Source: a virus
IMG/VR virus record: IMGVR_UViG_3300045952_000369
Location: 1 to 26,586 of that record
Direction: 5' to 3' (one strand)
DNA: 26,586 bases
This document shows, piece by piece, positions 11,069 to 26,571 of this stretch. Under the pieces are notes generated by a model. It made no database searches. It saw only the letters and a list, made by a program, of their open reading frames with translations, and was not told the origin of the DNA. Both the position numbers and the translations under genes were made by a program. Numbering within the stretch: the stretch's first letter is position 1; each line of letters begins with the position of its first letter.

Positions 11069-11688
11069 TGGCCGACTTCCAGGCCGGAATCCGAATCGAC
11101 CTCGAGCAGATCGAGAAGGCGCTCGGCAAGCTGCCGTCCGGGCTGCCTCGCGCCGTCCTCGCCGGGATGAAGGCGTCGGCGATGGTGATCCTGCGGCGCG
11201 TCGTCATGGAGCGCATGTCGGACCCGTCGCCCGGGCGCTTCCCCAACCTGGGGGTCGTGACGGGGACCGGGCGCCGGTCCATGGTGGCCCGCGCCATGAA
11301 GCTGGCCCACGACCGGATCAGCCTCGAGGTTGGCTCGCCGCTGAAGTACATCCGCGCGCACGAGCTTGGCTTCGAGGGCGACGTGAACGTGACGGGGCAC
11401 ACGCGCCACCTCGTCGCCCCGCCGGATATCCGCAAGGGTAAGATCACGAAGACCAGCGCGCGCCGCCTGAAGGCCGCGCTGCGCGCCGGGCGGGCAACGA
11501 CCGCCTTCGTGAAGCCGCACAAGCGCTTCGTGCACATCCGGGCGCGCGGCTTCATCCGCCGGAGCATCAACACCGAGCTGGAACCGACGCGCCAGCGCGT
11601 GCTGCGAGCCATCGAACACCTTGCTCGCACGGGCAAGGCGCCCGGCGTCGGAGACATCTTCGGCGCCGACCTCGGAGGGCGGGCATGA
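11068..11688 (+). CDS. HK97 gp10-like neck / tail-completion protein
   Basis: A 206-residue basic protein. It resembles HK97 gp10-type proteins, which act at the head-tail joint: N-terminal helix (LEQIEKALGKLPSGLPRAVLAGM), a middle with GTGRRSMVARAM, then SPLKYIRAHELGFEG, matching the family's tyrosine-to-glutamate-Gly segment, and KPHKRFVHIRARGFIRRSI near the C-terminus. ATG 11068 overlaps the upstream stop; GTG 11065 is an alternative adding one residue. The stop overlaps the next start (ATGA). Length is somewhat above the usual 130-160 residues. Confidence 0.8.
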   Translation: MADFQAGIRIDLEQIEKALGKLPSGLPRAVLAGMKASAMVILRRVVMERMSDPSPGRFPNLGVVTGTGRRSMVARAMKLAHDRISLEVGSPLKYIRAHELGFEGDVNVTGHTRHLVAPPDIRKGKITKTSARRLKAALRAGRATTAFVKPHKRFVHIRARGFIRRSINTELEPTRQRVLRAIEHLARTGKAPGVGDIFGADLGGRA

Positions 11689-12776
11689 ACAACGTCCTGC
11701 GCGTCGCCAATGTCGCCGTGGCCGCCCTGGCTCTTGCGCTGACGATCCTCGCCAGCGGCCCCCGCGAGGAGCTGGAGGAGTTCCCCGTGACGACGCTCGT
11801 CATTCCTTTCGGAAACGGCAGCGCCGAGCTGCCGACGCCGCCGCCGAACTTCGGCGGCGGGGCCACGCGGCAACTCGGTGGCTCCGGAGGCTATCCCGCC
11901 GCGGCCGACGGCGACTATCTGTTCTCGCTCCCGGGCGTCGCCGGTGCGCCGCTCAACCAGCTTGGCGGGCGCATGTCGTTCACCGCCGTGGGGAACGGGT
12001 GGGCCGACACGACTCCGGGGCACACGTACTCGCTCGTGCTGCGCGTTCATCCCGACCACGCGTTCAACGGTCCGTCGGGGCCGAGTGGGTGGCGGCTCGA
12101 GGTCAACACCAACCAGGGTGTTCACCCTGTGACCGTCAACCTCTACGCCTCGGACTTCCCCCTCGACGCGTGGCAGACCTGGGTCTCTCCGTCGTTCGTT
12201 GCGGACAACGAGAACACGATCCTCCTCCCTCGCATGTTCAGCCTCGGCCCGCAGGCGTCGGCGCAGCGGTGGCTGCTCGACCAGGCATTTCTCGTGGAGG
12301 GAATCGAAGTGCAAGCCAAGTGGAGAGGAATCCAGGGACTCGTCGACCGCTTGAAGACGATCCGCGGGGCCGCGGGCGGTCACCTGGTCGACGTCCAGCA
12401 GCGGGTCTACACCAGCCTCAAGGTTCCCGAGGACGGACTCGCGATCCCGTGGCCCTACATCTGCGTGCCGCTCATCGACGCCGAGACCCGCAGCCTCGAG
12501 ACCGAGCGCGGCGTGGACCGCACGTGGGATCAGAGCGTCTACTGTTTCGTCAAGGAACCGGAGCCGTCGAAGCTCGACAGCGCCGCGGCGGAGGGCCTGG
12601 CCGACCTGTGCGACTCCATCGACAAGGCCATCCTCGAGGACCCCACCCTGGGAGGCGTGGTCCACAACGCGATCGTGGTTGGGGTCGAGCCCCAGGCTGG
12701 GGTGCTGGGCGAGTACGGCGAAGCGGTCGTGACCATCCGGATGCGCCAGCAGTTCGACGCGCAAGACGTGGGGTGA
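11685..12776 (+). CDS. Composite ORF: membrane peptide, beta-rich domain and tail terminator
   Basis: One uninterrupted 363-codon frame with three parts. Residues 1-34 form a signal peptide or membrane anchor (VANVAVAALALALTILAS, then an acidic end). Residues 35-208 are a Gly/Pro-rich, beta-rich jelly-roll-like domain ending WLLDQAFLVEG, reminiscent of carbohydrate-binding or galactose-binding-like modules. Residues 209-363 match in size and pattern a stand-alone tail terminator (gpU-like): LVDRLKTIRGAAGG, then VYTSLKVP, WPYICVPLID and a final strand VVTIRMRQQF. Good ribosome sites precede starts at 11685, 11787 and 12309, all in frame. Expression as nested products or as a long fusion is therefore possible. 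A tail terminator with an exported N-terminus would be odd, since it acts in the cytoplasm on the nascent tail. The family call for the C-terminus is moderately sure. Confidence 0.75.
   Translation: MNNVLRVANVAVAALALALTILASGPREELEEFPVTTLVIPFGNGSAELPTPPPNFGGGATRQLGGSGGYPAAADGDYLFSLPGVAGAPLNQLGGRMSFTAVGNGWADTTPGHTYSLVLRVHPDHAFNGPSGPSGWRLEVNTNQGVHPVTVNLYASDFPLDAWQTWVSPSFVADNENTILLPRMFSLGPQASAQRWLLDQAFLVEGIEVQAKWRGIQGLVDRLKTIRGAAGGHLVDVQQRVYTSLKVPEDGLAIPWPYICVPLIDAETRSLETERGVDRTWDQSVYCFVKEPEPSKLDSAAAEGLADLCDSIDKAILEDPTLGGVVHNAIVVGVEPQAGVLGEYGEAVVTIRMRQQFDAQDVG
11774..11789 (+). promoter_or_regulatory. Internal ribosome site and GTG start
   Basis: GGAGGAG (11774-11780) precedes an in-frame GTG at 11787 by 6 nt. 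Initiation here would skip the hydrophobic N-terminus and yield a soluble product starting TTLVIPFGNG. The site could instead be chance in Glu-rich codons (REELEEFP), since GAG codons mimic Shine-Dalgarno sequences. Confidence 0.45.
12296..12311 (+). promoter_or_regulatory. Internal ribosome site and GTG start for the tail terminator
   Basis: GGAGGGA (12296-12302) precedes in-frame GTG 12309 by 6 nt. Initiation here gives a 155-residue product, the normal size for a phage tail terminator, beginning QAKWRGIQGLVDRL. The site falls exactly at the boundary between the beta-rich domain and the terminator-like domain, which favours real use. Confidence 0.6.
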
Positions 12777-14860: not shown

Positions 14861-17680
14861 GTGGCCGACCTGACTATTCGCGGGATCGTCGAGCTGATCC
14901 TGAAGCAGGTCGGTCTCCGCGAAGGGCAGACCGAGATGAAGGCGCTCGAGCGCGAGGCCAAGCGTCTCGGCGTCACCCTCCGCTCCGACACCTCCAAGGC
15001 CACCGACGCGCTCAGAGACCGGGCGAAGGCCCTCGGGCTCGAGCTGAACAAGACCTCCGGCAGCGCCGCCGCGGTTGGAGGTGCGCTCCGACGATACCTC
15101 GGCATCGCGGCGATCACCGCGTTTGGGCGCGCCGCGGTCAGCGAGTTCGCCGGTGTCGACCGCGCCTTCAACGCCGTGCGCGTGACGATGCGCAACCTCG
15201 GCCTCGAGACCGACGAGACCATCCCGCGCGTCCGAAAGCACCTCGAGCGGATCGCGGCCGACGGCGGGCCGCCGCTCCGCGAGACCGTCAAGATCTTCCA
15301 GAGCTTCATCGGGGTCACCAAGGACGCCGACGCAACGCTCGCCGCGGTTGACCTGGCGACCGACATCTCCGAGACCGGCGAGGCTGGTCTTGACGCAGCG
15401 ACCGCCGCCGAGCACCTCGCGAACATCCTCCAGGGCCGCGCCGGGCCCGCGGCGCGCGCCCTGGGCATCGACATCAAGAAGGCCAACGGGGAGACGAAGG
15501 ACGCGGCCGAGCTTCTCGAGGAAGTGCGCAAGAAGTTCCAGGGCGTGGCCGCGGAAACCGACGACACGCAGAACTCTCTTGACAAGCTCTCCGACTCGTG
15601 GAACCGCCTCAAGCGCGCCGTCGGTTCGATCATTTCTCCGCTCGTGCAGGTCGCCGCCTTCCTTGCCGAGAAGCTCGTCGCCGCCATCGAGACGGGGCGG
15701 GCGGTGTTCGGAATCTTCTTCGACGACATCGGCAAGAAGGCCAAGGCGTTCGCCGAGCTGTTCACCCGCGTGTTCGACTGGAAGACGCTGCTCGCCGCCG
15801 GGCCCGAGGCTTTCCTGAAGGGCGTGGGCAAAGCCTACATGGAGATCGCGAACGTCGGGAAGGAGGCCTTCGACAAGCGCCTGAAAGAGATCGTCTCCCT
15901 GTGGGGGAAGGGCGGAGAGGACAGCGCCAAGGCATACGCCTCGGGGTGGGACCGGATGTTCGGGGAGGCGTTCACCGGCTTCGACAGGCTCAAGGCACAG
16001 GCCGCCCGGCAGGACGCGGAGGAGGAACGGAAGGCTGGAGAGAAGGCGGCCAAGGCACGACTGGACGCGCAGGCCGACGTGCTCGAGGCCGAGGCCGAAG
16101 CCTACCGCGAAGGCACCGACAAGCGCCTCGAGCTGGAACTCCAGGCGCTGCGCGTGCGTGCCGACGCCGAGAAGGCGCAGGCGAAGATCAGCGGGGAGGA
16201 GGCCGAAACCAGCGCCTCGGATATCGCCGCGGCCGTCTCCGCCATCGAGGACCGCTACCGCGCCGAGAAGGCGGCGAAGGAAGCGGCGTTCAACAGGCTG
16301 CGGGCCAACGAGAGCATCAAGGCCGAGCTGGCGCTGCTGAAGGCGCAGATCGACACGCACAAGGAGGGCACCGAGGAACGGCTCAACGCTGAGATCGAGT
16401 TCCTCCGGGCCACGGGCGCGCAGGCCGTCGCCGAGGTCGAAGGGACCGAGGAGACGAAACAGATGATCCGCCAGGCGTTCCTCGACGCCGAGCGGGCCCT
16501 GCGCGATCAGTTCTACAAAGAGACCAAGAACCGCGAGGTCGAAAACGAAAAGGCCGTCGCGGAGGCCGCCGCCCAGGTCACCCAGGATGCTTACGACGCG
16601 GAGGCCGAGGCGGCTCGCGCCCAGCTCGAGCAGCAACTCGCCGACCGCACGCTGACCATCGACCAGCGCGCGGCGCTCGAACAGAAGGCCATCGACGAGA
16701 ACCTGACGCGCGAGTTGGACAACATCCTCGCCAAGGAAAAGGAGGAGCTGGAGTCCATCAAGCGCGTGCTCGAGGCGCGCATCGAAGCCGAGCCCAACCC
16801 CGAGGAGCAGGCCAAGCTCCGGCAGGCGCTCACCAAGCTCACCGAGCGCATCTCGGACACCGCGCGCCGCAAGGAAAAGACGGCGAAGCAAAAGGCCGCC
16901 AACGAGGAGGAGGCTCTCGACCGCAAGGTGGCCGAGTCGAAGATCCAGAACGCGCTCGACACCGCCCAGGCGACGGTGTCGTCGCTCGAGATGGCCTTCG
17001 GGGAGAACAAGGCCACGGCCGCGGCGACCGCTGCAATCAACACGTACCAGGCGATCACGCAGGCGCTCACGCTGCCCTTCCCTTTCAACTTCGCCGTGGC
17101 CGCCGCGGTGGCCGCCCAGGGGTTTGCCCAGGTTCGCTCGATCCTGTCGACGGACCGCAAGAAGACGAGCGGGCAAGCGGGGGCCCTCAGCGCCCCCGCG
17201 GCGGGCGGCGGGAAGAAGACGGGCGCCGGGGCCCCCACGGGCGGCGATGGCGCCGAGCGGCCACGGGCGGCCGCTGGGGGGGACCAGGGCGGCGGCGGTG
17301 CCTTTCAGGTTGGGACGACGGACCGGGGCGGCCGCCGGGCGGGCGGCGGGGGGAGCCTGCGGGCCGTGCGCGAGGGGAGCCTGGACGACCCCGTGAACGA
17401 TATGGTCGCCCGGGGCCTGGGCCGCAGCACCGCCCAGGACCTCATCCGGTTCTTCGGCGGGGGCTTCGCCGAGGAATCCCTGAGGATCATCCAGCGGCAG
17501 CAGCAGGGCGGGGCGGTCTCCAACGTCACGAATGACAACCGCACCGTGGACAGCTCCTCGACCATCGACCAGCGCACGATCATCGAGGGCAACGTCTACG
17601 GAGGCGACGCCGGGCTGCGACACCTCAAGCGGAAGCTCGACGAGGCTGGCCGCAAGGACCTCGGCCGGGTTCAGCGATGA
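14861..17680 (+). CDS. Tail tape measure protein
   Basis: A 939-residue protein that sets tail length and lies inside the tail tube. Start GTG 14861, three bases after the chaperone stop. The N-terminus has the typical tape-measure entry (RGIVELILKQVGLREGQTEM), followed by a region with GRAAVSEFAGVDRAFNAVR, a hydrophobic stretch (SIISPLVQVAAFLAEKLVAA, about residues 256-275) and a long coiled-coil middle rich in Ala, Glu, Lys and Arg (about 370-700). Another hydrophobic segment (NFAVAAAVAAQGFAQV) is followed by a Gly/Ala/Arg-rich stretch (about 765-830) and a folded C-terminus. With about 1.5 angstrom per residue the tail would be near 140 nm; this is a family rule of thumb. Confidence 0.93.
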   Translation: MADLTIRGIVELILKQVGLREGQTEMKALEREAKRLGVTLRSDTSKATDALRDRAKALGLELNKTSGSAAAVGGALRRYLGIAAITAFGRAAVSEFAGVDRAFNAVRVTMRNLGLETDETIPRVRKHLERIAADGGPPLRETVKIFQSFIGVTKDADATLAAVDLATDISETGEAGLDAATAAEHLANILQGRAGPAARALGIDIKKANGETKDAAELLEEVRKKFQGVAAETDDTQNSLDKLSDSWNRLKRAVGSIISPLVQVAAFLAEKLVAAIETGRAVFGIFFDDIGKKAKAFAELFTRVFDWKTLLAAGPEAFLKGVGKAYMEIANVGKEAFDKRLKEIVSLWGKGGEDSAKAYASGWDRMFGEAFTGFDRLKAQAARQDAEEERKAGEKAAKARLDAQADVLEAEAEAYREGTDKRLELELQALRVRADAEKAQAKISGEEAETSASDIAAAVSAIEDRYRAEKAAKEAAFNRLRANESIKAELALLKAQIDTHKEGTEERLNAEIEFLRATGAQAVAEVEGTEETKQMIRQAFLDAERALRDQFYKETKNREVENEKAVAEAAAQVTQDAYDAEAEAARAQLEQQLADRTLTIDQRAALEQKAIDENLTRELDNILAKEKEELESIKRVLEARIEAEPNPEEQAKLRQALTKLTERISDTARRKEKTAKQKAANEEEALDRKVAESKIQNALDTAQATVSSLEMAFGENKATAAATAAINTYQAITQALTLPFPFNFAVAAAVAAQGFAQVRSILSTDRKKTSGQAGALSAPAAGGGKKTGAGAPTGGDGAERPRAAAGGDQGGGGAFQVGTTDRGGRRAGGGGSLRAVREGSLDDPVNDMVARGLGRSTAQDLIRFFGGGFAEESLRIIQRQQQGGAVSNVTNDNRTVDSSSTIDQRTIIEGNVYGGDAGLRHLKRKLDEAGRKDLGRVQR

Positions 17681-19836
17681 GCCAGCCCACGCTCTACGCG
17701 GTCCTAACCAGCCCACTTGGGGACGAGATGGACCTCTCGCCGCGCCTCTCGGAGATCGGGACGCTCTCCGAGCGCATGGAGGAGGGTCTTCTCGAGCTGG
17801 TTCACGGCGACATCGACCTGGAGATCGACAACCACGACGGGGCCTTCGAGCGGTTCATCGTCAACGGGCAGCGCGGCGAGGAATGGACCGTGCGCATCTG
17901 GCGCCGCGTCCGTTTCCGGCGGCAGCCGTGGGAGCTTCTGTTCGCCGGTGTTCTGGACCTCCCGGCATCGGTCCACTACAACCGCAGAACCAAGACGGCG
18001 AACGTCCAGGCGTTCACCTACTCGAAGCTCCTGGAGAGCCATTCGGCCGAAGTTGTCAAACGCAACGTGGTCGGGAGGACGGGGACGGTGGTGGCTGCAT
18101 CGGACAGCGTGTCCGTCTCGGACACGACCGATCTGTTGCCGGGAGACGAGATCACGCTCACCGGAGAAGATGAGTCCGTGGCGGAGACGCAAACCATCGA
18201 GGCGATCGTGGCGACGGGCACGCCCGGAACCATACGCACGGTCGAGGTGTGGGATAACGACTTCACGGACGCCTCTCTCACGCTCGATACTCCGTACCAC
18301 AGGAACGAGACGGTCAAGGAGCTGGCCGCCCTGCTGTTCCAGGCCGCTGGCCTGACCCACTATGACATCCAGGTCGACCAGGACATCTCCGAGACCCCGC
18401 TCGCCACGGTAGGGAATGCCATCGGGCTGCCGCTCGAGACCCTACGCTCGGTCACGGTTCAGGGCGGCGACGTGAGCGTTGTCGGCCAGCTCTCTGGTAC
18501 TCAGCACGCAGACTCGCCCACCGATCCGTTCTCGGACGTCGACGCGGTCATTGACGCTCAGATCGACTGGCGACCGTACCTGCTCAGCGAGCCGGGGACC
18601 ATCGTTCGAGTCCCGACAGGTGTTGGCGCGGTCGACGATGTTGGCCTGTACGCAGCAGACCACGCGGCGGGAGATTACTATAGGCTCATCAAGAATCCGC
18701 TCGGACCGGCGAACCCATCGACGCTCGAGCTGCACCGCAACGGGGTCAACATCCAGCAGGTTGACGGCTATACGGCGGGGAGCGGTAATGCGTTTTGGGC
18801 GTCGCGCTCCCTGGACCTCGACGTGGTCAACGGCGAGGCGTGGTGTAGCTTCAAGCGTGGCGACGGTAGCCTCGAGCGCACGGTTATCGTGCCCATCCCT
18901 GGCGGCGGCAGCGCTACGACCTACAACGACGCGTTCGGGCGCCTGCGGTTCTGTCGCGCCCTCTCTCGGATGTTCCGCCTCGGAGCGAGCCTCGAGATCC
19001 ACACCATCGGCTCGGGCAAGGTCCAGGAGCGGGCGGTCGTTCCCCCCTCTGGTCTGAACGCCTGGACCCTGCGCCACTGTGACGACTTCGTGTTCGGCGT
19101 CTACCGCAACGGCTTCACCCTCGGATGCGTCGTGTGGAGCGCAACGCTATGGACCGAGCTTGCGCGGTTCACCCTGGCGACCGGCAACTATGACGCATTC
19201 ACCACGATCTTCGACGAAACGGATGGCGACCAGGTCGGCCTGGTCCTTCTGGACCTGGGGCCCTTGGGCCCTCTCTACTACGTCATCTCGCGCGAGTTCG
19301 CCGGGGTTATCCCCTATGCCGACTTCGGCGGCATGAGCGTGAGCGCTGGTCTGCGCCAGCTCGCTCTCGTCTCGATGGCCACGGTGTCGGTCGACAGGTA
19401 CCGCACCGGACAGCTCATCGGGCGAAACACGTTCCCAACCTTCACGGAGGAGCACGACCTCGGCGTGCCCCTGGAGCAGACGAGCAGCCCCGTCTCGGAG
19501 GACTACCGCACGAGCGTGCGCGTGACCGGCAAGGACGCGGCGGGCGATGACATCGTGAAGCTTGCGGGCGCCACGGGTGACTCGAGCGCGCGTCTCGAGC
19601 TGGAGTCGCCGATGATCACCACCGAATCTCTCGCCGCCGGGATCGCGCAGAACTACTCCAACCTCCTGTCGTCGATGTTCGCGGCGGGAGAGGAGGCTGT
19701 GGAGATTCGAGAGACCGGCAGGTTGGTTAGGCCGCTGAACCGAGCGACCCTTGATGCCGTCCCGTTTCGTGTGCTGGAGGCCGAGACCGAGATCGATGAT
19801 CGCCGCCAGCAGCTTCGCCTGCTGCGGGTGTCGTAA
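17677..19836 (+). CDS. Tail hub / baseplate-like protein with large insertion
   Basis: A 719-residue tail-tip protein. The start overlaps the tape measure stop as ATGA. The N-terminal 120 residues (ELVHGDIDLEIDNHDGAFER; WELLFAGVLDLPASVHYN) and the C-terminal 150 (PVSEDYRTSVRVTGKDAAGD; VPFRVLEAETEIDDRRQQLR) look like the two halves of a tail hub or gp27-type protein. Between about residues 270 and 580 lies a beta-rich insertion with Trp/Tyr-rich repeats (VFGVYRNGFTLGCVVWSATL, then FDETDGDQVGLVLLDLG), suggestive of a propeller-like or lectin-like domain exposed at the tail tip. The role of the insertion is inferred. Confidence 0.75.
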   Translation: MSQPTLYAVLTSPLGDEMDLSPRLSEIGTLSERMEEGLLELVHGDIDLEIDNHDGAFERFIVNGQRGEEWTVRIWRRVRFRRQPWELLFAGVLDLPASVHYNRRTKTANVQAFTYSKLLESHSAEVVKRNVVGRTGTVVAASDSVSVSDTTDLLPGDEITLTGEDESVAETQTIEAIVATGTPGTIRTVEVWDNDFTDASLTLDTPYHRNETVKELAALLFQAAGLTHYDIQVDQDISETPLATVGNAIGLPLETLRSVTVQGGDVSVVGQLSGTQHADSPTDPFSDVDAVIDAQIDWRPYLLSEPGTIVRVPTGVGAVDDVGLYAADHAAGDYYRLIKNPLGPANPSTLELHRNGVNIQQVDGYTAGSGNAFWASRSLDLDVVNGEAWCSFKRGDGSLERTVIVPIPGGGSATTYNDAFGRLRFCRALSRMFRLGASLEIHTIGSGKVQERAVVPPSGLNAWTLRHCDDFVFGVYRNGFTLGCVVWSATLWTELARFTLATGNYDAFTTIFDETDGDQVGLVLLDLGPLGPLYYVISREFAGVIPYADFGGMSVSAGLRQLALVSMATVSVDRYRTGQLIGRNTFPTFTEEHDLGVPLEQTSSPVSEDYRTSVRVTGKDAAGDDIVKLAGATGDSSARLELESPMITTESLAAGIAQNYSNLLSSMFAAGEEAVEIRETGRLVRPLNRATLDAVPFRVLEAETEIDDRRQQLRLLRVS

Positions 19837-20501
19837 TGGCCAACGGTTATCAGCACTACAACCTGCTGCGCATGAGCCCGCAGAACGGACGGGTCGAAGT
19901 GCTCGACCTGATGCTGGCGTTCACCGAGTCCAAGGGCCCGACGTCGACCGTCCCGGCCTACTCCTACATCGCTGACCAACGCGAGGACATCAACAACAAC
20001 ATCGACGTGATCGCCCGCGGCTTCCGCATGTCGGTCACGATGACCATCGACTTCTTTGCGATGGCCGACGAGGCTGTCCTGCTCGAGATCGTGAGGCGCG
20101 CCGGTGAGACCATGATCGACGGGTCGCGCGCCTGGGACTTCGACCTGTCCATCGACGGGGGCATCAACTTCCACCCCGTCCTTCTTCGGTCAGGCGGGGT
20201 CGACGGGCCCGACGGCCACGCGAACAAGACCATCGCGGGGAACCGCTGGCGCACGACCTGGCACCGCATCGGGTTGCTCGACGCCATCCCGCTGTCCGAT
20301 CCAGGAGCGGGCGCCCCGGTCGGGCTCGCTGCCTTCCTGCCTACGGTCTGGCAGCTCCCGACGGCCAGCGAGTCGAATCGCGGCTATGTCTACCTGCTGC
20401 GCCGAGCCGGTTTGCCAGACGAGGCGTTCATTTCGCTCGGCGATGGCATCGGCGGGTTCGGTTATCTTTCCTGGGCCTACGGTGGAGCGCTGCTACCATG
20501 A
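19836..20501 (+). CDS. Distal tail protein of unknown family
   Basis: A 221-residue protein. ATG 19836 overlaps the hub stop (TAATG), and its own stop overlaps the spike start (ATGA). The first 140 residues are mixed alpha/beta (YNLLRMSPQNGRVEVLDLML; RGFRMSVTMTIDFFAMADEA). The C-terminal 50 residues (GYVYLLRRAGLPDEAFISLG, then GGFGYLSWAYGGALLP) are glycine- and aromatic-rich. By position it should join the hub to the spike. No family is recognised. Confidence 0.7.
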   Translation: MANGYQHYNLLRMSPQNGRVEVLDLMLAFTESKGPTSTVPAYSYIADQREDINNNIDVIARGFRMSVTMTIDFFAMADEAVLLEIVRRAGETMIDGSRAWDFDLSIDGGINFHPVLLRSGGVDGPDGHANKTIAGNRWRTTWHRIGLLDAIPLSDPGAGAPVGLAAFLPTVWQLPTASESNRGYVYLLRRAGLPDEAFISLGDGIGGFGYLSWAYGGALLP

Positions 20502-23500
20502 CGAAGACACTCTACGTTCTCGCCGTTCTTGTCGGAGTCGGACTCGTTCCTCAAGCCTACGGCCAGGCGTTCACACCATCGAACCCCAACACCTCGAACG
20601 TCAGCCCGGTGCCGGACTCCGCGTGCACCAAGCTCGGCATGATGCGGTTCATCTCGAGCGGACCAGACCGCGGCAAACACTGGTGCTGCGAGGACGACTC
20701 TGGCTCGCTCAAGTGGAAGCAATGCGAAAACGCAGGAGGCTCAGGCTCCGGTGACGTCATCGGGCCGGGAGCCGCGGTCAACCTCGCGGTTCCAGTGTTC
20801 GACGGCACGACAGGGAAGCTGATCAAATACCAGTCCAACGCACCGACCATCACCTCGACCGGAATGACGCGAAGCCGTGGCCCGTTCTACGACGTGGCGC
20901 ACCCGAGCTTCGGGGCCAGCACCGGCGGCAGCGCGGCCGCCAACGCCACGGCGATCCACGCGGCCATCGCGGCCGTGGAGGCGCTGAACGCGGGCGTGGT
21001 GGTCATCTCCGAGAACTACACGACCAACGCCATCACGGTACCGGACGGGGTGTCCATCGAATGCACCGGGGAGGGGAGCGGGCTGACGGCTGGGGCGGGA
21101 GTGACCACGCTGCTCGACTACGCGCCCGCAGGAGGCACGGGCGACCGCGGGAAGTACATCGCGAACTGCAAGTTCGACGGCGCGGGCATCGCGACCACCG
21201 TCGTCAACCTGGACGCGGGCGCGAAGCTGCTTTTCGAGAACAACAACGTCACGGGCGGGGCCGCGTCGGGCTCGACCTGCCTGCTCATCGACGGGCTGCA
21301 GAACTCCACCATCGGGCACAACAACATTCAGGACTGCGAGTCGGCGATCGTCCTCCAGGGGAACAGCTCCCTCAACGTCATCGAAATCCCCGACGTGGAG
21401 CGGCCCGGGGTCGTGTCGTTCCGGTCCAAGGAAGCGAGCGGCGGTGAGAATCAGTGGGGCAACAAGCTCGTATGGGGCGTGTACGAGCGCGACCGTGACG
21501 GAGCGGGCACGCCCTACGCTGGCCCGACCCATCACATCTACTTGACCGGCGGCGGCGACTGGCAGATTTACGGGCCGCACATCGGCACGCCGTCTCAAGA
21601 GGCCATGTTTTCGTTTATCGGCGCGGGCGGCGCGAGCCTGCCCGGTGGGCAGAACGGCGTGAACGGTGTCCGCATGTACGGCGGCTCGATGCACCTGGCC
21701 CCGACCAACGCGAGCGCGGAATGTCTCGGTTCTGGCAACCCGCACCCGTGCTGCACCGGGGCGGGCACGGGCTGTAACCAGGACTGGGACACGAGCGGCG
21801 ACTGCGGCGTCTACGTCGAGGGCACCGCGAACGTGGTGCTCAACGGCATGGGCGTCTCTAGCGGCAATACCCGCTGCTACTTGAAGGCCGCGACCGGGGC
21901 GGAGGCGGTGAGCCGGGATCCGATGTTCGAGACGGGCAGTTCGACCACGAGCGGCTCGGTATGGCAGCAGTCGCTTTCCGACTGGCAGAACAAGCAGTTC
22001 ACGGCCAAGACCTACGACACGACCGCGGCGCGGTACGACTACACGACCAACAATGCGGAGCAGTATTCGGAGCGTGCGACTTCGGACGGTCACTGGCAGC
22101 TATGGGACACGGGTGGCACCGACGCGATACGCTTCGAGGTTCGGGCGGACGACGGCGGCGCGGCATGGATACGCGGCTCCACGCCCGACCTCGGGGCCGT
22201 GGACGACTGCTCGGGAGTGACGTGTACGACCGGGCCGCACATGCTGATCGAGACGAGCTGCAATAGCGCCATACCTACCGATTGCGACGCGAACCTTCAA
22301 GCGATGATCGACGACACCATGACCTCGTGGTTCAAGTGGACGGGAGCCACCGAGCGCGCGGCGGTCAAGCGCGGCACCCTGGAGTTCTCCGACACCGCAA
22401 CCTCCACGGGCATCAACTGGAACGACGGCTCGCAGGACGAGTGGCAGATGCTGCGTGTCGATTCCAGCATGGACGCGGACCAGGACCTCGGCATCTGGAA
22501 CGCTCAAGGCACGGCCGGCTCACAAGAGCAGGTAGTCAACTTCGACGCGGCGTTCGCATCGGCGTCCACGCATACCGTTGGCACGACGCTTGTGGGACGG
22601 GCGACGACGTTCTTTACCGGCGTGTTCGTGGACTGGATCAATCAGGAGCGGCGCAGCGACGGCTTCACGGACATCGCGACCGCGCTCACGGATCTGCCCT
22701 CGACGGACGGTCTGCTGCGTATCGACTCGGACGAGAACGACACGACGGCGTTCGTGGACACGAACCCCGCCACGGCCTCGGCCGGCAAGCAGGACGCGCT
22801 CGTGGTGGATACACGCGACGGCAAGTTTCGAGTGCTGTCCTCAGCAGACCAGCCGCACTGCGGCAGCGGGAACAACTGCACGCAGGACATGGTGCCGTTC
22901 TCCTTCTTCGTGCGCATGGACGATCCCACCAAGGCGTTCTCCGACAGCGATGCGGACGGCACGCTCGACGGTGGCGCCATCGGGGAGTGGAACGACCAGC
23001 AGGACATCGGCTCGTGCTCGACGACAACCGCGACCAAGTGTAACGCCGATGGCGACTGTCCGGGAGGCGAGTTTTGCCGCACCGGGACGTGTTCGGTGAC
23101 AAGCTCGACCGAATGCAAGACGGCGGCGCAATGCCCGGCGGGCGAAAGCTGTGTCTCCGGGAGCGACAACAGCTTCGAGGAGTACAAGAACATATCGACC
23201 GGGCACTTCGTCGGCGGCGCTGACGCGTCGAGCGATCCCTCGTACATGCACGGCGGGATGTGCAATATCGGCGAGACCTTCTGCTCCACGACCACGGCGA
23301 CCAAGTGCCTTGTGGACGGCGACTGCCCAGGCGGGGAGACATGCATTGAGACTCAGCTGACCGGGTGCGGCGGCGCCGCTATCGCGGAGTTCGGATACCA
23401 CACGGACTCCTCGACGGGCCAGCCGGGGGAAGCGTTGAAGCATCCGAGCGTCGTCATCACGACCGGTGGTCTCAATATCCACATGCCGCCCGAGACGCAC

Positions 23501-24400
23501 ACCTACTACACGTCGCCGTTCACGATCTTCCGAGGGCAGGGGAACAACTGGTCGCCAGGCTTGTGGAACATGCCGTTCTTCATGATTACCGACGACGGCG
23601 TGCGGTCGGACGGTGGAGGGTTCTTCGGCAACACGAAGGCGTGGCCCGCCCCGCTGACCAGCTACATCTACCCGACATTCAATCTTGCCGCGCACCACGA
23701 CGTGCAGAGCACCGACCCCGCGGCTGCCATCTTCTCTTCGACGAACAGCGGCAGCGGCTGGGAGGACGGTATTCTGTTCCGAATCGAGGACAAGACCGGC
23801 ATCAACACTCGCTCCGGTGCGAAGTTTTGGGATTACACATTCACGGGCCAAGAAGACGTTATGACGCGGGAAGCCTTCGGGGTCTACGCGAACAGCGTGG
23901 TCAAGCTCGGGAGCTACGCCGAGACGCTGAGCGGCGATGTGAATGAGGGGCAGTACATCCAGTGGGAAGGCATCGAGCAAGACGGCGCGACTGGCGGCTA
24001 CACGGCCATCACGGATGGCATCCAGATCCGGCTAGGGTCACAGTTCCCCACCTCGGCAGACAAGTACATTCGCGTGCCCGACGCCAGCGGCGGTCTGCCT
24101 GTGGACCGCGACGGCACGGAGACTTCGACGCCCATCACCTTTGAATGCGGCTCGGTCTCGATGGACCCGCCGAACGTCCCGACAGTGTCGACAGCGACTG
24201 GCACCGCCACTGTTACCGGCCTGGCCGCCAACGACGTGTGCGAGTGCGCGGCCAGGGCGGACTTCAACGACGACCTCATCGCCAAGGGAGACGGATGCTA
24301 CGGCACCACGAACACCCTCAACCTCAGGCTGTATAATCCGACCGGCGCCGACATCAACCCGACGGCACAGACCGTCGATTATTGCTGTTGGAGGAAATGA
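20498..24400 (+). CDS. Giant beta-helix tail spike with signal peptide and Cys-rich repeats
   Basis: A 1300-residue protein. The N-terminus has Sec-signal form: MTK, hydrophobic TLYVLAVLVGVGLV, then PQAYGQA with a possible cleavage site near residue 22-24. From about residue 127 a pectate-lyase-type beta helix begins (YDVAHPSFGASTGGSAAANA; then VVISENYTTNAITVPDGVSI and NNNVTG-type turns), the common architecture of host-polysaccharide-degrading spikes. Cysteine is abundant: CLGSGNPHPCCTGAGTGC (about 409-426), CSGVTC, and two repeats containing CSTTTATKC followed by DGDCPGGE (about 839-890 and 927-955). Such repeats are usually found in secreted bacterial proteins, fitting an exported product. 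The C-terminal part is beta-rich and ends with VDYCCWRK. Whether it is assembled on virions, secreted, or both is not known. Enzymatic residues could not be picked out. Confidence 0.8.
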   Translation: MTKTLYVLAVLVGVGLVPQAYGQAFTPSNPNTSNVSPVPDSACTKLGMMRFISSGPDRGKHWCCEDDSGSLKWKQCENAGGSGSGDVIGPGAAVNLAVPVFDGTTGKLIKYQSNAPTITSTGMTRSRGPFYDVAHPSFGASTGGSAAANATAIHAAIAAVEALNAGVVVISENYTTNAITVPDGVSIECTGEGSGLTAGAGVTTLLDYAPAGGTGDRGKYIANCKFDGAGIATTVVNLDAGAKLLFENNNVTGGAASGSTCLLIDGLQNSTIGHNNIQDCESAIVLQGNSSLNVIEIPDVERPGVVSFRSKEASGGENQWGNKLVWGVYERDRDGAGTPYAGPTHHIYLTGGGDWQIYGPHIGTPSQEAMFSFIGAGGASLPGGQNGVNGVRMYGGSMHLAPTNASAECLGSGNPHPCCTGAGTGCNQDWDTSGDCGVYVEGTANVVLNGMGVSSGNTRCYLKAATGAEAVSRDPMFETGSSTTSGSVWQQSLSDWQNKQFTAKTYDTTAARYDYTTNNAEQYSERATSDGHWQLWDTGGTDAIRFEVRADDGGAAWIRGSTPDLGAVDDCSGVTCTTGPHMLIETSCNSAIPTDCDANLQAMIDDTMTSWFKWTGATERAAVKRGTLEFSDTATSTGINWNDGSQDEWQMLRVDSSMDADQDLGIWNAQGTAGSQEQVVNFDAAFASASTHTVGTTLVGRATTFFTGVFVDWINQERRSDGFTDIATALTDLPSTDGLLRIDSDENDTTAFVDTNPATASAGKQDALVVDTRDGKFRVLSSADQPHCGSGNNCTQDMVPFSFFVRMDDPTKAFSDSDADGTLDGGAIGEWNDQQDIGSCSTTTATKCNADGDCPGGEFCRTGTCSVTSSTECKTAAQCPAGESCVSGSDNSFEEYKNISTGHFVGGADASSDPSYMHGGMCNIGETFCSTTTATKCLVDGDCPGGETCIETQLTGCGGAAIAEFGYHTDSSTGQPGEALKHPSVVITTGGLNIHMPPETHTYYTSPFTIFRGQGNNWSPGLWNMPFFMITDDGVRSDGGGFFGNTKAWPAPLTSYIYPTFNLAAHHDVQSTDPAAAIFSSTNSGSGWEDGILFRIEDKTGINTRSGAKFWDYTFTGQEDVMTREAFGVYANSVVKLGSYAETLSGDVNEGQYIQWEGIEQDGATGGYTAITDGIQIRLGSQFPTSADKYIRVPDASGGLPVDRDGTETSTPITFECGSVSMDPPNVPTVSTATGTATVTGLAANDVCECAARADFNDDLIAKGDGCYGTTNTLNLRLYNPTGADINPTAQTVDYCCWRK

Positions 24401-24402
24401 CC

Positions 24403-25524
24403 ATGAAGCGAGCAAGGGTCCTCGGGGTCCTGGCAGCAGCGACCATCAGCCTGGTCATCATCGCTTACGCCGGGTGCCAAGTCTTTGCCGGCGAGGTCCC
24501 CCTGCAATGGGACCACGTCACCTGCTCGCAGGGCACCCGGACCTATACCGTCCACAGCGGCACGGCGACCGGCACCTACACCAACGTCCAGAACGTCGGC
24601 GACGTGAACGCCTACACCAAGACAGGCCTCACCGACTGCACCACGTTCTACCTGGCAGCGAAAGCGGTCTGCACTGTGGGCACCACGATCTACACCAGCG
24701 CAACGTTCTCGAACGAGGTCAGCGGCTGGCCTCGCATCTTCGTCACGAGCACGAACCCGGCGCAGCTCGTTGCACCAGCGACCGGCGTCTCGACCGTCCC
24801 GCTCGGCCTGGTCGGAGGCAACATCCGCAACGGGTTCACCGCCACCACGACCTACCCTGGACTCCGCGTGCTCTCGACCAGCTCGACCGACTGCCGCAAC
24901 GTCACCATCAACCTCGAGCTGACAGCGGCCACGCTGCAACCCGGCAGCGCGGTCCTCACGATCACGAACCCCGAGGGCACGTTCGGCACGCTCGGCCTGT
25001 CCGTGCAGCAGGCCACGATCATCGTCCCGATCGTCCCGAACCTCGGCCGCACCGACATCTCGGCCGTCCTGCCTCCGGTGCCACCGACCTCGAGCATCCT
25101 CGACGACGGCGATCCAGGAACGAGCAAGGTCGGCTACTGGCGCTCGACCGACCTCGGCATCCCGACCTCGACGGCTCACGGCGGCGACTACAGCAGAGCG
25201 AACTACGCGCAGAGCCAGACCGGGATATGGGATACGTACACGTGGAACCTGACCGGCCTCGCACCCGGCGGCTACGACGTGTTCGCTCACATCCCGCCCG
25301 ACACGCAAGTGACCTCGCGCTGGGTTCAGGCCGCGCTCTACACCATCGCGGGCAATACCGTCACCATCGACCAGCGCGCCAGGACCGCTGACAACTGGCA
25401 CTTCCTCGGGCGGTTCATCCTCGGGACGACGGCCACGGTGACGGTGCGCAAGGCGACGCTCCCGAACGACAGCAGCAAGAACCTCATCGCCGACGCGGTG
25501 AAGATCGTGGGGGCTGCGTCGTGA
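24403..25524 (+). CDS. Exported FnIII / golvesin-like binding protein
   Basis: A 373-residue protein. ATG 24403 is preferred: GGAGG (24390-24394) lies 8 nt upstream, whereas ATG 24397 is only 2 nt from it. A signal peptide is apparent (MKRARVLG, then VLAAATISLVIIAYAG, Cys at 25); AYAGC resembles but does not fully match a lipobox. A fibronectin-III-like domain follows (LQWDHVTCSQGTRTYTVHSG to FSNEVSGW, about residues 30-110), then a beta region. From about residue 226 a golvesin/Xly-type carbohydrate-binding domain is recognised: ILDDGDPGTSKVGYW, WNLTGLAPGGYDVFAHIPPD, WHFLGRFILG, and the ending ADAVKIV. It probably binds surface glycans. Neighbouring spike and endolysin genes overlap or nearly touch it. 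Confidence 0.8.
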   Translation: MKRARVLGVLAAATISLVIIAYAGCQVFAGEVPLQWDHVTCSQGTRTYTVHSGTATGTYTNVQNVGDVNAYTKTGLTDCTTFYLAAKAVCTVGTTIYTSATFSNEVSGWPRIFVTSTNPAQLVAPATGVSTVPLGLVGGNIRNGFTATTTYPGLRVLSTSSTDCRNVTINLELTAATLQPGSAVLTITNPEGTFGTLGLSVQQATIIVPIVPNLGRTDISAVLPPVPPTSSILDDGDPGTSKVGYWRSTDLGIPTSTAHGGDYSRANYAQSQTGIWDTYTWNLTGLAPGGYDVFAHIPPDTQVTSRWVQAALYTIAGNTVTIDQRARTADNWHFLGRFILGTTATVTVRKATLPNDSSKNLIADAVKIVGAAS

Positions 25525-25958
25525 CGCTCGGGGAGAAGCGCAGGCTGTTCACGTCGCTCGCGGCGCGGCTCGTTCTGCACGCCGAGACCCTTGGTCTGGC
25601 CCTGGCGCTGGCCGAAGCCAAGCGCACCGACGAGCAGGCTGAGATCAACGCGATGGGCGAGGCCGGGCGCGAGGCCCTGGCTCTCCACGTCAAGAAGCTG
25701 TGGCCGCGCCTCGCCAACGCGATCATCAATAACGGGGCGGCGAACGGCATCCGCAATTCCCTCCACGGCGACGGGCTCGCTGCTGACTTCGATCTGTACC
25801 GCGTCGCGGCTCCCGGTATCCCTGGATCCTACCTCGACAAGACCGAGGACCACAGGCCGCTGGGTGAATGGTGGGAAGCGCAGCATCAGCTCTGCCGCTG
25901 GGGCGGGCGCTTCGGTGACGGCAACCACTACTCGCTCGAACACGAAGGGAGGAAGTGA
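25521..25958 (+). CDS. M15-family peptidoglycan peptidase (endolysin)
   Basis: A 145-residue zinc peptidase that would cut peptide stems of peptidoglycan, acting as the endolysin. Motif SLHGDGLAADFDLY (about residues 80-93) supplies the first His and Asp (H82, D89). WGGRFGDGNHYSLEH (127-141) supplies the catalytic Asp and last His (D133, H136), as in L-alanyl-D-glutamate peptidases such as T5 endolysin and CwlK. No signal peptide or cell-wall-binding domain is seen; the compact form is usual for Gram-negative hosts. GTG 25521 overlaps the previous stop as GTGA. The products downstream look like membrane partners in lysis. Confidence 0.88.
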   Translation: MTLGEKRRLFTSLAARLVLHAETLGLALALAEAKRTDEQAEINAMGEAGREALALHVKKLWPRLANAIINNGAANGIRNSLHGDGLAADFDLYRVAAPGIPGSYLDKTEDHRPLGEWWEAQHQLCRWGGRFGDGNHYSLEHEGRK

Positions 25959-26293
25959 TGGCACGTGTGACGCGGTGGGCGATCGTGTTCGTGATCGGAG
26001 CGGTTGTCGGATTCTCCGTGGGGGTGGTCTGCGCTCAGAACCCTGCCCCCGGTGGTGGCGGTCGGGTATTCGAAGGGATCGACTGTTGCGAGAAGATCGG
26101 GCACCTCCTGTACGGCATCGAGACCGCGATCAGCGAGATGGGACCGTATGACAAGAAAGAGAGCGAGGTCCGCACTCTCTCTCGTGCCGTGCTCGAGTCC
26201 GCGCTTTCCAACGCTGGTTTCAAGTGCCAGTGGAGTGTCGTCACCGACGGCAAGAGCGGGACCGTTCAGCGGTACCTGTGTGACGTCCGATGA
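25958..26293 (+). CDS. Small exported protein, possible lysis accessory
   Basis: A 111-residue protein with an N-terminal membrane segment or signal peptide (WAIVFVIGAVVGFSVGVVCA, about residues 7-26). A Pro/Gly linker (NPAPGGGGR) leads to a mixed domain with four cysteines (DCC, FKC, YLC), consistent with disulphides outside the cytoplasm. ATG 25958 has GGGAGG 5 nt upstream and overlaps the endolysin stop; GTG 25955 is an alternative. The place after an endolysin suggests a spanin or lysis regulator, but no lipobox is present. Function is inferred. Confidence 0.7.
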   Translation: MARVTRWAIVFVIGAVVGFSVGVVCAQNPAPGGGGRVFEGIDCCEKIGHLLYGIETAISEMGPYDKKESEVRTLSRAVLESALSNAGFKCQWSVVTDGKSGTVQRYLCDVR

Positions 26294-26571
26294 GCAACGG
26301 CGACAACCCGAACAACGTGGTGCAGATCCCTCGGTGGATGCTTGGCGTCGCGCTCTCTGTCGTGGGCGCGCTCCTCCTGATGTTCGTCGCGGTCCTGGGA
26401 GTGATCGGGATGAAGGTGTGGGAGTCGTCGGACAGCTCCTCGAAGGAAACCATCAGGCTGCAGGGAGACGTCAAGGTGATGAGCGGTCAGATAGACGCGC
26501 TCCGAATGCAGCAGATCGGATTCGAGAACCGGCTCGAAGGGGTCGAGGACCGGCTTAACCGAAAGGAGTAG
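26290..26571 (+). CDS. Single-helix membrane protein with coiled coil, holin or inner-spanin candidate
   Basis: A 93-residue protein: a short polar N-terminus, a strong membrane helix (MLGVALSVVGALLLMFVAVLGVIGM, about residues 17-41) and a charged coiled coil (IRLQGDVKVMSGQIDALRMQ onward). The TM-then-coiled-coil order is that of inner-membrane spanins; pore-forming holin is an alternative. The start overlaps the previous stop (ATGA). It completes an apparent lysis module behind the M15 peptidase. Confidence 0.7.
   Translation: MSNGDNPNNVVQIPRWMLGVALSVVGALLLMFVAVLGVIGMKVWESSDSSSKETIRLQGDVKVMSGQIDALRMQQIGFENRLEGVEDRLNRKE

Follow-up and report, generated by a model that had tools for sequence, protein, structure and literature searches.

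In the textbook view, virions of tailed phages are completed inside the cytoplasm, ahead of lysis. Among the exported phage proteins described so far, T5 Llp and the Cor family are encoded beside receptor-binding genes (PMC9586334) and lambda Lom is encoded beside tail genes (PMC12309495), while endolysins with signal peptides, for example fOg44 Lys44, are late phage proteins exported by the host Sec system (PMC6116005). On the bacterial side, WceF of Pantoea stewartii is an exported tailspike-fold glycanase that carries a Tat signal (PMC7949094). Finally, a DGR survey reported N-terminal transmembrane segments or signal peptides for cellular targets (PMC8144416). No description of signal peptides on tail fibres or spikes was found in the open-access literature that we searched.

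Here we analyse a stretch of 26,586 nucleotides (the window) from an IMG/VR record of an uncultured tailed virus of bacteria (67% GC). The original prediction for this DNA was that a spike and the protein encoded next to it both begin with signal peptides, so that they may act at the cell surface rather than, or as well as, on virions.

Results and Discussion

The head-to-tail gene content of the window comprises terminase, portal-MuF, capsid, neck, tail tube and tape measure (14861-17680; phrog_9483, phrog_3336). Two further tail-region genes (17677-19836 and 19836-20501) stand between the tape measure and the spike (20498-24400, +; 1300 aa), which starts in an ATGA overlap with the second of them and lies in the tail module. 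On the 3' side follow an FnIII/golvesin protein (24403-25524, +; 373 aa), a candidate M15-type endolysin without signal peptide (25521-25958, +; PF13539, 0.014; phrog_2649 endolysin, 0.006; HGDGLAADFD motif), a small Cys-rich protein (25958-26293, +) and a one-TM, coiled-coil protein (26290-26571, +), which gave no useful family match and from its sequence looks holin- or XhlA-like by eye. Short gene overlaps are seen at 20498, 25521, 25955 and 26290, and because overlaps of only a few nucleotides link most of the downstream genes, those from the spike to the end look like one late operon, placed between the tail and lysis genes. Both reading frames of the original prediction are indeed present. 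Its suggestion that they might be expressed in lysogens finds no footing, since we saw no integrase in the window and overlaps tie the two genes to late tail and lysis genes. A search of IMG/VR for relatives of the complete spike, golvesin, 719-aa and portal proteins gave none, and a tblastn search of isolate phages returned no match to the spike, golvesin, 719-aa or 221-aa proteins; the portal has only remote matches among isolates (<60% identity).

The N-termini were judged with a rule-based scorer, which evaluates the charge of the n-region, an uncharged hydrophobic core and the residues at -3 and -1. On a control stretch of E. coli K-12 the scorer recovered 12 of the 14 proteins known to be exported. 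With the threshold at ≥11 it called one of 22 proteins presumed to be cytosolic (YmdA, itself possibly exported) and three of 12 inner-membrane proteins, so that the rule does not separate anchors from signal peptides. The spike scores 13.1 and the golvesin protein 15.2; both have a basic n-region, a hydrophobic core and small residues at -3 and -1, and when the N-terminal 60 residues of each protein were shuffled 2000 times, no shuffle reached the observed score (0/2000 in both cases). The plausible signal peptides of the original prediction are therefore borne out for both proteins.

In the spike the predicted signal peptide covers residues 1-22 or 1-24 (20498-20569, +). The N-terminus reads MTKTLYVLAVLVGVGLVPQAYGQA|FTPS, and cleavage two residues earlier, at AYG|QA, is equally plausible. 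The golvesin reading frame can also open at 24382 or 24397, but the start is most likely 24403, with GGAGGAA about 8 nt upstream, and this choice gives the protein a KRAR n-region. Its putative signal peptide (24403-24489, +) would be cleaved at VFA|GE or, alternatively, at AYA|GC (MKRARVLGVLAAATISLVIIAYA|GCQVFA|GEVP). A lipobox ([LVI][ASTVI][GAS]C) is absent from the end of the hydrophobic core in the spike; the golvesin protein has YAGC there, with a non-standard Tyr at -3.

A third candidate for export, absent from the original prediction, is the small protein 25958-26293, with a putative signal peptide (25958-26035, +; score 15.3, matched by 1/2000 shuffles) and four Cys in the mature part. 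It sits between the endolysin candidate and the one-TM gene and could have an accessory, perhaps spanin-like, role in lysis. Separately, a neck-region gene at the tail-terminator position (11685-12776) has an N-terminus, MNNVLRVANVAVAALALALTILA, that looks like a signal peptide or an anchor (13.1); this gene has an extra N-terminal domain ahead of its terminator-like part.

By position and motif the 1300-aa protein is a predicted tail-spike-type protein, and the window offers no other candidate for a spike. Behind the signal peptide lies a base region with Cys residues (C43, C63, C64 and C76; 20624-20725, +) that resembles by eye the fibre beta-hairpin 'GxxxYnt...W'. It is followed by the phage tail-fibre motif GDVxGP...FDGTTGKLI at residues 85-111 (20750-20830, +), which is common to phage fibres and spikes. 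The protein had been described as a beta-helix spike; the tail-fibre motif and the tail-module position support the spike, while the right-handed beta-helix is weak, matching PF13229 over residues 220-296 (21155-21385, +) at 7e-5, below the Pfam cut-off. A PDB sequence search gave no useful match. Residues 840-949 (23015-23344, +) contain three Cys repeats of the form C-x7-C-x5-C-P-x-G-E-x-C with a weak match to DUF7107 (0.003); the repeat was found in none of the viral contigs searched. Altogether the spike has 40 Cys where about 7 are expected (3.1% versus 0.52% in the other genes of the window, P ~2e-18), and the enrichment persists outside the Cys-repeat insert (P ~4e-10).

The neighbouring protein has a firm Golvesin_C domain (25102-25509, +; PF25275, 6e-10, 39.7 bits against a gathering score of 31.6), while the FnIII domain named in the original prediction is assigned by reading, with no database match. 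We regard it as a sugar-binding-type neighbour of the spike. The tail-fibre motif is absent, and an AlphaFold model computed without alignment was unusable (pLDDT 45). Both proteins had been called cysteine-rich. The golvesin protein has only five Cys (1.3%, a mild enrichment), one of them in or adjoining the signal peptide, and we therefore restrict the term to the spike.

Compared with the described systems, the window spike resembles WceF in its predicted export and perhaps in a right-handed beta-helix tailspike fold. WceF, however, is encoded by a bacterial gene in an exopolysaccharide operon, uses a Tat signal and has a solved fold, whereas the fold of the spike is weakly predicted and a WceF-type catalytic beta-helix finds just the Pfam match given above, with none in the PDB. 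Llp, Cor and Lom likewise have export signals and genes among or next to tail or receptor-binding genes. They are small lipoproteins or a beta-barrel and show no spike features, while the window proteins are large (373 and 1300 aa, against under ~10 kDa for the Llp/Cor type) and have no standard lipobox. fOg44 Lys44 differs in that there the lysis enzyme itself carries the signal peptide.

How rare are signal peptides on fibre-type proteins? A search of IMG/VR with the motif GDVxGP...FDGTTGKLI gave 80 viral loci with 76 motif ORFs closed at the 5' end. The scorer passes four of these, but the call for L063 (8.7) is weak and depends on an upstream start; setting it aside leaves three (L028, L073 and L074, representing two lineages). 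These fibres and spikes, for example L002 and L003 (MW202545, 'endo n acetylneuraminidase'), share with the window spike the motif near the N-terminal base, the tail-module position and a large body, and differ from it in that nearly all are without signal peptide (73/76) and most are Cys-poor. Across all ORFs of ≥250 aa in the motif loci, 8 of 301 score ≥11, all within contigs L028, L073 and L074. In a second sample, collected with another fibre motif, none of the 33 motif ORFs has a signal peptide, and a wider scan of these loci found one more fibre that has (L116/L120). In 13 reference or isolate phage stretches one of 179 large ORFs (Mx8 p64) is positive, and it is no tail gene; in GTDB genomes two of 43 motif ORFs score ≥11 (L148, L160). 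The samples are small and the motif samples biased toward sequences near the query, so these rates are only rough. Signal peptides on fibre-motif proteins are thus rare and, where present, tend to come in sets. The numbers agree with the premise that tail proteins normally lack Sec signals, and given 3/76 motif ORFs and 1/179 isolate or reference ORFs, those in the window are unusual.

Some further observations came from these samples. Mx8 p64 (L184 32795-33868), a Myxococcus phage hypothetical protein with a strong signal peptide, lies outside the tail module and is a candidate lysogenic-conversion protein. EBPR siphovirus 2 gp70 (L182 1204-2367), near lysozyme and tail genes, has a Tat-like N-terminus, TPRRALIGAATAGIVLA. 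A Cys-bearing fibre hairpin (YVCNGTAW) was rejected as a mark of exported fibres, with signal peptides on 0/33 motif ORFs, seven of which contain Cys. We also discarded even Cys counts as evidence for disulphides: they dominate in the proteins with signal peptides, but they depend on the cleavage site and were noticed post hoc.

Predicted signal peptides on virion-family proteins recur in at least four other unrelated phage or provirus sequences. In a 37.7 kb sequence (G001; L087/L088) about a dozen genes of one tail block have them, including fibres, a LamG protein, one protein with an Mtd domain (PF21916, 1e-5) and another that is nozzle-like by reading (L087:3981-6443; phrog_511 'internal virion protein', 3.6e-10); none is seen among the genes for head and packaging. 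The nozzle-like gene starts in an overlap with its predecessor, and the AlphaFold model of its product without alignment was unusable (pLDDT 33). The same sequence encodes a 408-aa multi-hydrophobic protein that is O-antigen polymerase-like by eye. In G002 and G003 (L089-L092) signal peptides are found on a collar-domain fibre (PF07484, 1.3e-23) and on the spike, and are missing from the terminase, capsid/head, internal and adaptor-position genes. The two spikes are 96% identical over 641 residues including the signal peptide and then diverge, one copy having a LamG domain. Such an exchange of the C-terminus behind a constant signal peptide and base resembles virion-anchored fibres and favours a place on the virion.

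G004 (L120; capsid phrog_9953) has a fibre with, and a nozzle-like gene without, a signal peptide. Isolates of its capsid lineage (Mx8, Mx9, BUCT555 and others) have none on their tail genes, which shows that the trait is not needed for tails of this type. Finally, a Nitratireductor MAG contig (L160) encodes a fibre in which a signal peptide is combined with collagen-like repeats and the GDVxGP motif; a lysin-like gene comes next. In a Nitrospina MAG (L148 6593-10939), signal-peptide-bearing proteins resembling phage fibres, possibly domesticated ones, stand amid ordinary bacterial genes. Fibres with signal peptide but without any Cys also exist (L089:9056-10846, L120:4505-5389), so disulphides are not the general reason for the signal peptides.

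Across five unrelated sequences the N-terminal segments have no common sequence and nevertheless the same layout of K/R, hydrophobic core and AxA with cleavage sites, several of which precede Q; the cores are mostly of signal-peptide length. Because five unrelated sets of tripartite N-termini have AxA-type sites and no sequence in common, Sec export is the simplest reading. We give a probability of roughly 45% to the view that Sec export is real, that folding is oxidative and periplasmic, and that virions most probably acquire the spike at lysis or later. The spike, its golvesin neighbour and the small Cys protein would be made as Sec precursors late in infection and cross the inner membrane; after processing by signal peptidase I they would form disulphides and fold in the periplasm, as their signal peptides and Cys suggest. 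At lysis the exported proteins would meet the progeny particles, and the spike would dock on tails through its tail-fibre-like N-terminal base (residues ~25-110), with the golvesin protein as an accessory binding protein beside it. This proposal rests directly on the signal peptides, the gene order, the tail-fibre motif, the Cys enrichment and the recurrence in other phages, from which we infer export, cleavage, disulphides and docking. Signal peptides on virion-family proteins, together with a constant base and varying tips, favour a virion fate via the periplasm. Phage P22 particles can take up spikes in vitro; the open-access papers that we searched gave no precedent for exported spikes that dock after lysis. 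Against the periplasmic route speak the isolates of the G004 capsid lineage, with no signal peptides on their tail genes, and the difficulty of fitting into it a nozzle that has to close the head channel. More tentative is the wider idea that unrelated tailed phages make their adhesion proteins and the distal parts of their tails outside the cytoplasm, with fibres, spikes and Mtd-type proteins, and once a nozzle-like protein, passing through Sec export, periplasmic folding and addition at or after lysis.

The original prediction had put forward another fate, as an alternative or an addition to a place on virions. In its exclusive form the spike and the golvesin protein are exported but stay off the virions, being set free or presented on the surface of infected cells. 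There they could trim or coat capsule or receptors, aid progeny release or block superinfection, with Llp/Cor and Lom, encoded beside tail genes, and the exported WceF as models. The signal peptides on both proteins, the missing tail-fibre motif of the golvesin protein and the known exported proteins, phage-encoded beside receptor-binding genes or tailspike-fold and bacterial, are all consistent with this. Llp and Cor, however, are small lipoproteins, while here a 1300-aa protein with tail-fibre motif is the sole spike candidate; in addition, no surface anchor or outer-membrane secretion route was identified, and in other phages collar-domain, Mtd-domain and nozzle-like proteins carry the signal peptides. 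We rate this fate somewhat less probable than the virion one, but a strong competitor. Export itself is well supported by the sequence, and it is the phrase 'rather than on virions' that is weakened, by the signal peptides on virion-family proteins elsewhere and by the G002/G003 pair, in which different C-termini follow an unchanged signal peptide and ~640 residues.

It is improbable that the hydrophobic N-termini stay uncleaved, whether to anchor the proteins in a membrane or to form a hydrophobic virion segment that, for example, inserts into a membrane during infection. In its favour, the scorer also passes inner-membrane proteins of the E. coli control (3/12 at ≥11), and the neck gene 11685-12776 and the G001 nozzle-like protein, which are expected in assembled tails, have such N-termini; the conserved layout with cleavage sites and signal-peptide-like core lengths in five unrelated sequences argues against it. 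An artefact of wrong start codons or of a chimeric contig with a bacterial segment is very improbable: the start at 20498 has no clear Shine-Dalgarno sequence, and relatives of this IMG/VR record, a linear fragment, are almost lacking, but neighbouring genes overlap by a few nucleotides, GC and GC3 are level over the junctions, the signal peptide directly follows a coupled start with the phage-fibre motif 85 residues in, and independent contigs show tail-type proteins with signal peptides too.

Conclusion

The signal peptides on the spike of the window, on its neighbour and on tail-type proteins elsewhere hint at an undescribed way of making or using tail proteins. With Sec signals on spikes, fibres and perhaps a nozzle, either part of virion assembly would run through the periplasm, or infected cells would put spike-like enzymes and lectins to use before they lyse. 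Such signal peptides could mark environmental phages of this kind during annotation. If true, the building of tail proteins in the periplasm would give Caudoviricetes a route of assembly that has not been described.
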